Shown: positions 1,277 to 4,200 of the stretch, piece after piece
Position numbering within the stretch: position 1 is the first letter of the stretch
Layout: each line of letters begins with the position of its first letter
DNA from: Kofleriaceae bacterium
GTDB taxonomy: Bacteria > Myxococcota_A > Polyangia > Haliangiales > Haliangiaceae
DNA length: 64,000 bases
Direction of reading: 5' to 3'
Assembly (NCBI GenBank): GCA_013368795.1
Contig: JABFXX010000154.1
Span: forward strand, 1 to 64,000
Translations under genes and position numbers: made by a program
The notes under the pieces: model-generated
Databases searched by the model: none
The model's input: the letters and a program-made list of their open reading frames with translations, nothing else
What the model was told of the DNA's origin: nothing

Positions 1277-4200
1277 CTAATGAAAGTCGCGGCTGTCGAC
1301 CTCGGCCACTGGCCGCGATAGCTCGGGTGCCCAGACCTTCTCCGCGATCAGGTGCACGATGCCCTCCTGCACCTGCAGCTTGCCGCTAATGCCGAGCAGC
1401 GACGTCGTCTTGATGATCGTCGCGTACTGCGCGAACACCTGCGCCCAGACGACGAGGTTCACGAACCCGGTCTCGTCCTCGAGCGTCATGAACGTCACGC
1501 CCGACGCCGTGCCCGGCTGCTGCCGGCAGATCACGATGCCGACGTACTCGATGCGCTGGCCATCGCGGCCCTTCGACACGGTGCGCGCATCGGGCCAGCG
1601 ATTCGCGCGCAGCTCCTGGCGCAGCGGCGCGAGCGGGTGGCCGATCGTCGAGTGATCGCTCGCGCGGTAGTCCCAGAAGATCTCGTCGAGCTTGGTCAGC
1701 GCGCCGAACGTCGCCGCATTGACGTCGCCGCCGAGGTCGAGCGGATCGTCCTGGCGCCGCACCCAGCCCGTCACCTGCCATAGCGCATCTCTGCGCTCGC
1801 GCACGAGCGGCCCGAGCGCGCCGCACTCCGCGATCGCCGTGTGCGTGCGCACCGGCAAGTGCGTCCGCCGCACGAAGTCCTCGACGCTCTCGAACGGTCG
1901 AGCGCGGCGTGCGTCGGTGATCGCCGCGCCCTCGGCGAGCTGGATGCCCTTGATCCAGCGCAGGCCCATGCGCACGGCGAAGCCGAAATCGTCGTCGGTG
2001 GGCTCGAGCGTGCAGTCCCAGTCCGAACACGTGACGTCGATCGGCCGGATCTCGAGGCCGTGTCGCTGCGAGTCGCCGACGATCGTGGCGGGCGAGTAGA
2101 AGCCCATCGGCTGCGCGTTGAGCAGCGAGCACGTGAACTCCGGCAGGTAGTGTTTGCGCATCCACGACGTCGCGTACGCGATGAGCGCGAAGCTTGCGGC
2201 GTGCGAGTTGTGGACGACGAAGTCATTCGCGAGGAAGTTATGGTTGCCGTCGATCGAGAGGTCGTAGGTCTGCTGCTCACCTGCAGGCTCGATGCTGACG
2301 ATGCGGTCCCAGTAGATGTCGGACGTCGCAAGACGCTCGAGCTCCTTGGATCCCAGGTGGCTCGCCAGCTTCGCGACCACCCCTCGTTTGTCACCGCTCG
2401 TGCTCCGGATCTCGCGCATCCCGAGCTTCGTTGCACGACCAATCGCATTCCACGTCGTGCCGCGAGCATCACGAGCTGCTCGGATGACGCGATGAACCTC
2501 GGAGGGGATCACGTCCTTCGACATCCGTGCCTCGTTCGGTACCGCGAGCGACTTCGCACGTGCGCGTTTTCTCGCCCCGAGGAAGCGTTTACCGACGAGC
2601 TTGTAGAAGCGACACAGGTTATCAGCACCGGTGACGGTGACGACATAGCTGCGAACGATACGACCGCGATACGGCCGTTCGCGCTCGTAGCACCGCGAGA
2701 TGATCCCAAGGCGCAGCAGGAGATGCTGAACATCCGCCGCGAGTCGCTGTGACGCCGTATCGTAGTCGACGTGCGCTCCCTTCACCGCGATCGTGCCATC
2801 GCCTTCCCAAAGCCGCGCGAGGACGAGTGCGATATCTCGATCGCAGAGTGTGAAGACGTCGTCGGGGATTCGTTTCGTGTACGCACCGCATCCCCACATG
2901 CCCAGGTCCTTTGCCCACGCAACGGCACCCGGCGGCCGTGAGCGATCGAGTCGTCGAACGCGAACGCTGAGGCAGTCTTTGTGGCGCTCTATGACCGCCT
3001 CGGTGTTGGTGAAGCGCTCGACTGAACGCGCGAACTCGGCGCAGTGTTCATCGTCCTGCGTGTAGAAGTAGAACGTGCTCGGGTGGCAGAGGTTGCCTTC
3101 GGAGATCAAGCCACCGAGGGCAACGAGCTCGTGTGTCGACCAGCGCTTTTTGCCGAGCTCGGGCAAGCCCCTTGCCGTGGCTACGGCATCGCCGACCTTG
3201 AGATCGCCGAGCTTCGTCCAGCCCGACATCGTCAGGAACGGATGGTTCGCCGTCGCTTCGATCTCGCGGCCGAGCGCGGTGCGCAGCTTGAAGACCTGCT
3301 TGCGGCCACTCGCTTTCGCGGCAACGACGCGACGTTTCTCGATCTTCAGGTCGTCGCTGCAGGTCAGCGTGTAGCGAAGCGGCACGCGACCGAGGACGAC
3401 GTCTTCGATCCGGACCCACGCACCCGTCTCGGCATCGATGACACGCGTGTCGCCGACGACGCACTCGGGAAAGCCATACTCGCCGAAGCCGCGGATCTGC
3501 TCGAACACGCGCTCGGAGAACTCGCGCGCGATGCCCTTCTCCATCATGCGCGCGATCAGGCGCTCGCGATGTTTCTCGATGCGGCCCGAGCGGCGCCATG
3601 CGGCCATGTCGCGGCGGAGCTGGTCGGCTTCGCCCGGCGTGTAGTCGGCGGCGACGACCGCGAGCTTCATCACCTGCTCCTGGAAGAGCGGAACACCGAG
3701 CGTCTTCGAGAGGACGGGCTCGAGACACTCGTGCGGATACTCGACGGGCTCGAGGCCTTTGCGACGGCGGAGGTAGGGGTGAACCATGCCGCCCGAGATC
3801 GGGCCGGGGCGCACGAGCGAGACCTCGACGACGAGATCGTAGAACGTGCGCGGGCGCAGGCGCGGCAACATCGACATCTGCGCGCGGCTCTCGATCTGGA
3901 ACGTGCCGACGGTGTCGGCGGTGCAGATCATGTCGTAGGTGGCGGGATCCTCGGCGGGGATGGTCGCCATCGAGAGGTCGATGCCGCGGTGCTGGCGCAG
4001 GAGATCGAGGCCGAGGTGGAGCTGGTGGAGCGCGCCGAGGCCGAGGAGGTCGACCTTGAAGAGCGCGAGGTCCTCGAGGTCGTCCTTGTCCCACTGGATG
4101 ACGGTGCGGCCCGGCATCGAAGCGTTCTCGATCGGGACGATGTCGTGGACGGGCTCGTGACCGAGGAGGAAGCCACCGGGATGGACCGAGAGGTGGCGGG

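Follow-up and report, generated by a model that had tools for sequence, protein, structure and literature searches.

The split DnaE inteins of cyanobacteria sit at FAEY/CFNKSHS (a slash marks the insertion point throughout). In the 64-kb stretch of myxobacterial DNA that was analysed (the window), dnaE2 carries an insert within the same short conserved DnaE segment as these inteins (Npu and Ssp DnaE), at a site (GF[PN][EK]/SHA) four residues downstream, as the preliminary description had proposed. The insert is part of one continuous ORF, whereas the cyanobacterial intein is encoded by two genes, is followed by Cys+1, lacks an endonuclease and resembles the window intein only weakly in sequence (E ~0.06–0.15). 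The inteins of replicative DnaE at GFNK/SH occupy the homologous site, align with the window intein over the full length at 34–47% identity and similarly combine splicing and LAGLIDADG functions, but they reside in a different host protein and the DnaE2 inteins group apart from them. Among solved structures and curated models, DnaB inteins (Ssp and Npu DnaB; model PRK07773) provide the best matches, the Mtu RecA intein also being among the solved-structure relatives closest by sequence; the host and site of the DnaB inteins differ, and those of the same order (site SDLRE/C) are only ~30–34% identical to the window intein. The archaeal TliVMA and PI-PfuI have the overall splicing and LAGLIDADG fold in common with it, but are located in other host proteins and display 16–17% identity. 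Additionally, inteins in the same host paralogue and at the same site are present in the DnaE2 of Gammaproteobacteria and Rokuibacteriota, i.e. in other phyla, and no published description of these was found in the open literature. The kind of element and its mechanism are well known, and its host is a protein, DnaE2, for which no description of an intein was found among 5.39 million open papers; one large survey cut inteins out of C-family polymerases prior to its analysis (PMC3919608).

Anatomy and predicted fold of the insert

The dnaE2 ORF (1277–5878, minus strand; Table 1) is open across 1533 codons and is interrupted exactly at GEYGFPE/SHAASF by a stop-free, in-frame intein of 419 aa (2207–3463). 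Without the 419 intein codons, DnaE2 comprises 1114 aa, which is within the size range of uninterrupted relatives, and the flanks join seamlessly since 15 members of the host family (at least 85% identity over the flanks) read through the junction without an insert. The insert thus lies in frame at a conserved host site for which precise empty alleles exist, as befits a class-1 intein. Profile searches matched it far beyond chance to Intein_splicing (9e-24) and LAGLIDADG_3 (1e-16) of Pfam, and it scores above both curated cut-offs of the NCBIfam models intein_Nterm and intein_Cterm. The class-1 splicing residues are all present, namely C1, T71-A-N-H74 (block B), H418, N419 and Ser+1, and are invariant or nearly so across 39 intein homologues. 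As judged from its sequence, the insert is confirmed to be a real and intact intein, and the earlier claims of a 419-codon in-frame insert at exactly this position, of a full set of splicing residues (Cys1, TANH, H418-N419 and Ser+1) and of two LAGLIDADG-like helices all held true. Third-position GC was 0.76 in the intein, lower than the 0.91 of its exteins, and the same trend was seen in all occupied relatives measured.

An AlphaFold2 (AF2) model of the intein, based on the alignment of 39 homologues (pLDDT 91.6, pTM 0.91), comprises a HINT splicing domain (residues 1–98 and 384–419), a two-repeat LAGLIDADG domain (~105–310) and a helical segment (321–379). The top PDB matches identified by Foldseek were whole endonuclease-bearing inteins, TliVMA (7qss; E 1.7e-22, TM 0.72) and PI-PfuI (1dq3), followed by PI-SceI, mini-inteins and I-DmoI, and the HINT fold of a class-1 intein was thereby recovered by modelling and by comparison to solved inteins. 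Both LAGLIDADG helices (residues 111–124 and 210–223) are also helices in the model, each ending in a presumed catalytic acid (E122 and D222, respectively), as in DOD-type LAGLIDADG enzymes (PF14528), and these acids are invariant in 39/39 homologues from several phyla. The motifs and predicted fold thus support a complete endonuclease.

Table 1. Features of the dnaE2 locus and of the ImuA/ImuB-like genes, with positions in the window
Feature	Position	Strand	Basis or remark
DnaE2 C-extein, SHAASFA..., HHH and OB-fold, with stop	1277..2206	-	PF14579, PF01336
Intein	2207..3463	-	419 aa, C1 ... H418 N419
C-terminal splicing region, residues 384–419, including block F	2207..2314	-	TIGR01443
Small helical accessory segment, residues 321–379	2327..2503	-	AF2 helices, parts low-confidence; putative role
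LAGLIDADG homing endonuclease domain, ~residues 105–310	2534..3151	-	PF14528; AF2 and Foldseek; missing from mini-inteins
LAGLIDADG helix 2, residues 210–223, acid D222	2795..2836	-	G221-D222-G223 invariant in 39 homologues; AF2 helix
LAGLIDADG helix 1, residues 111–124, acid E122	3092..3133	-	E122-G123 invariant in 39 homologues; AF2 helix
N-terminal splicing region, residues 1–98, blocks A and B, TANH 71–74	3170..3463	-	phmmer to Ssp/Npu DnaB and Mtu RecA inteins; kept in mini-inteins
DnaE2 N-extein: PHP, palm, fingers	3464..5878	-	NF004225; Pfam DNA_pol3_alpha, DNA_pol3_finger, PHP
LexA-box-like palindrome CTGAACACTCGTGCAG	5872..5889 (consensus match 5873–5889)	-	directly upstream of dnaE2 ATG; one mismatch to M. 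xanthus box
ImuB-like Y-family gene	19843..21348	-	PF00817 8e-8; LexA-like box 21351–21367
ImuA-like gene	22315..22986	+	NF033429 1e-9 (below cut-off), RecA family 3e-7; LexA-like box 22299–22315

Alleles in the host family and relatives in other phyla

Besides the window genome (G000), 29 other genomes of the host family were searched for dnaE2 alleles. Full inteins were found in four members, i.e. in G000 and, at the identical site, in G005, G024 and G029 (71, 66 and 64% identity, respectively), while mini-inteins of 140–145 aa occupy the same site in G007, G004, G002 and G028; the latter lack the endonuclease and retain all splicing residues. The alleles of the 15 family genomes mentioned above are empty. 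Within the genus (16 genomes), two alleles are full, three are mini-inteins and ten are empty, one incomplete genome being without a dnaE2 match. Empty alleles had been sought in relatives as a check on mobility; they were found, and the hypothesis of a mobile intein survived. Of these relatives, the named ones with a full intein are represented by metagenome-assembled genomes and the majority of the others by fragmented drafts, in which an allele can be misplaced by mis-binning. In G029 (L066 and L067; contigs C6 and C156), the dnaE2 contig stops exactly where the intein is inserted, while its partner starts inside the intein; such a break in the assembly could arise if empty and occupied alleles were mixed in the population. 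Of 379 genomes drawn evenly from the phylum, only host-family members had a close intein match.

On the extein tree, monophyly of the occupied alleles within the genus is rejected (AU p 5e-5), and the presence and absence of the intein corresponds to at least six state changes. The empty allele of G013 is the sister of the window allele (support 97/97 and 92/89 in two trees), and the alternative grouping of G000 with G007 is compatible with the data (AU 0.10). On the intein tree, the mini-inteins fall into more than one group: that of G007 pairs with the full intein of G000 (81/91), and that of G028 with the full intein of G024 (84/86). Such pairing with different full inteins suggests, with moderate support, that there were probably three or more separate losses of the endonuclease. 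Additionally, intein and extein have diverged to about the same extent between the G007 mini-intein and the G000 full intein alleles (dN 0.11 and 0.10, dS 0.82 and 0.68, respectively), which indicates that the intein is probably old in the G000/G007 lineage and that the loss of the endonuclease came later.

Beyond the phylum, the same intein occupies the same site in DnaE2 of Gammaproteobacteria (L086–L090) and Rokuibacteriota (L092) at 54–59% identity. Between myxobacteria and Rokuibacteriota the inteins are 59–62% identical and the exteins 42–48%, and between myxobacteria and Gammaproteobacteria the respective values are 55–62% and 39–58%. This excess of intein over extein identity across phyla, though inteins diverge faster than exteins within the host family, points to lateral movement of the intein between phyla and, together with the empty, full and mini alleles, upholds the earlier claim that the intein is mobile. 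Within the family the intein tree roughly follows the extein tree, and this agreement lends no support to recent homing between its species. A separate acquisition of the intein by two myxobacterial genera was also unsupported (AU 0.413).

The DnaE2 inteins constitute a group of their own (SH-aLRT 99). Their next kin (34–47% identity) are found in replicative DnaE, at the homologous site, in Chloroflexota, Gemmatimonadota, patescibacteria, Thermaceae and Bacteroidota, which implies at least one host switch between the DnaE and DnaE2 paralogues, unless the intein predates the DnaE/DnaE2 duplication. Constraining the DnaE inteins to one clade was not rejected (AU 0.515), and the tree favours neither direction for a jump between DnaE and DnaE2. 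The replicative dnaE of the window genome is empty at the homologous site and differs there at 15 of 36 bases; the empty dnaE2 alleles of the family differ at 3–10 of the 36 site bases. No close relative that would indicate a phage or plasmid carrier was found in phage records, PLSDB or IMG/VR (best matches 21–45%, in other host genes where annotated). A plasmid-borne Paenarthrobacter dnaE intein (L179) was rejected as a counterpart, being at a different site (YGVF/CFQES); this site is close to that of the second of two inteins in a replicative DnaE of Chloroflexota (L127), which lies before CVYQEQI. The window genome harbours a second intein, i.e. a mini-intein in an apparent vitamin-B12-type ribonucleotide reductase (G000:C344:577-960, L003), and at the same reductase site G009 (L015) carries a longer, endonuclease-bearing intein. 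The order is rich in inteins (L008, L010, L011, L023, L016 and L019), with DnaB, PhoH-like and DUF362-like hosts (named by eye), and one DnaB gene of G031 (L008, G031:C208) contains two, of which one has a long Ser/Thr tract.

The host polymerase and its SOS context

The assignment of the host as DnaE2 in the preliminary description was corroborated, as it scored 1268 bits against the error-prone polymerase model NF004225 (cut-off 939) and far below the cut-offs of the replicative DnaE models. Its start codon is a GTG at 5876–5878 or, more likely, an ATG at 5867–5869. The intein junction is located just past the Pfam fingers domain in a strongly conserved segment, a position from which it may be expected that, until spliced, the precursor probably lacks polymerase activity.

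The published LexA box of Myxococcus xanthus is CTRHAMRYBYGTTCAGS (PMC9705874), and six sites resembling it at up to two mismatches were observed in the 64-kb window versus 1.65 expected. A predicted LexA box is present in the dnaE2 promoter, as in an SOS mutasome, and similar palindromes, mostly behind TTGACA, are present at the same dnaE2 position in full, mini and empty relatives. The ImuB-like and ImuA-like genes are on opposite strands, 14–17 kb from dnaE2 (19843–22986), and flank a short-chain-dehydrogenase-like ORF; each being preceded by one of the six LexA-like sites, they constitute a predicted dispersed mutasome cassette. lexA is present in the genome of the window, and no LexA box was found beside it at the same stringency. 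DnaE2 of M. xanthus increases upon treatment with mitomycin C, although papers disagree as to how directly LexA acts (PMC12288472, PMC9705874). The earlier label of SOS polymerase is well supported by the dnaE2 box one mismatch from the M. xanthus consensus, the palindrome kept in relatives and the imuA/imuB-like genes nearby. The LexA-like boxes, the ImuA/ImuB-like genes and the induction of M. xanthus DnaE2 argue that the host very probably belongs to the DNA-damage polymerases, whether or not it carries the intein.

Competing explanations and implications

The dnaE2 insert is, with high confidence, a selfish class-1 homing intein that passes through the homing cycle in the host family. This confidence is based on the motif and profile matches, the AF2 model and Foldseek comparison, the conserved catalytic residues, dN lower than dS, the allele series, the cross-phylum identity and the use of the homologous site by all these inteins. 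From the anatomy, motifs, predicted fold, alleles and relatives we infer that splicing and cutting occur, and which way each gain and loss went, as follows. The intein would be translated within DnaE2, fold and break the Glu-Cys1 bond by an N-S acyl shift; the N-extein would then be passed to Ser+1 and the intein excised by cyclisation of Asn419, leaving unscarred DnaE2 (GEYGFPESHAASF). The LAGLIDADG endonuclease would cut intein-free dnaE2 at the same conserved sequence, and repair would copy the intein in. In the family, the homing cycle would thus proceed from invasion through repeated endonuclease loss, with mini-inteins that still splice, to loss of the intein.

A less favoured reading, which we regard as doubtful while granting it some weight, is that the intein splices and its endonuclease is already dead or dying in the window genome, a stage before the mini-intein. 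The window copy displays a private deletion of four residues in the C-terminal helical segment after the endonuclease (KRG----VVAKL), which the other full inteins of the family do not share; confidence in the model is lower for this segment, and endonuclease function could suffer from the deletion. The same reading is favoured by near relatives, in which the endonuclease has been lost repeatedly. Against it, both catalytic acids, both helices and the full predicted fold are retained, and dN is lower than dS in the endonuclease region (0.25 versus 2.08 and 0.31 versus 1.08), the resulting dN/dS below 0.3, with dS near saturation, being in line with recent function. Given this saturation and the private deletion, present endonuclease activity in the window copy is likely, though not certain. 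That the insert does not splice, dnaE2 being a pseudogene or encoding a fused inactive protein, is exceedingly improbable: while the duplicate dnaE is reported to be dispensable in myxobacteria (PMC5285347), such that splicing could be under weak selection, no splicing residue has been lost, even in the mini-inteins, and the exteins are intact and show purifying selection (dN 0.14 versus dS 0.50).

The preliminary description had further suggested that, if splicing were slow or redox-sensitive (Cys1, Ser+1), the intein would insert a post-translational step into induced mutagenesis. Such a regulatory role was not supported: dnaE2 is uninterrupted in 10 of the 16 congeneric genomes and occupied in five, the LexA-like box is independent of the intein, and Cys1 and Ser+1, being generic to class-1 inteins, do not point to redox control. 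It is seen as very unlikely that splicing is conditional (on redox, ssDNA or temperature) and that the intein is kept as a post-translational brake on SOS mutagenesis. In favour of this reading are a host polymerase of the DNA-damage type preceded by a LexA-like box, reports of other inteins that splice conditionally (review PMC7765530), and the persistence of mini-inteins without an endonuclease in four relatives, which implies that homing alone does not maintain them. These mini-inteins may persist simply because clean deletion is rare; furthermore, the sister allele in G013 is empty and the same type of promoter precedes empty alleles. Nothing was found here in favour of regulated splicing, and the patchy presence of the intein among relatives speaks against a needed role. 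A conditional switch, by which the intein and the endonuclease-less mini-inteins would delay or gate active DnaE2 after SOS induction, is highly improbable; if true, mutagenesis would depend on protein splicing.

Inteins are best known from essential replication proteins, and the selfish homing intein described here resides in a dispensable polymerase of the damage type; its kin are spread over several phyla, where the homologous site is occupied in two paralogous families of polymerases. The empty, full and endonuclease-less alleles, at ~80–90% host identity, form a natural series in which the homing cycle could conveniently be tested, and are also suited to asking whether a splicing delay costs or alters induced mutagenesis.
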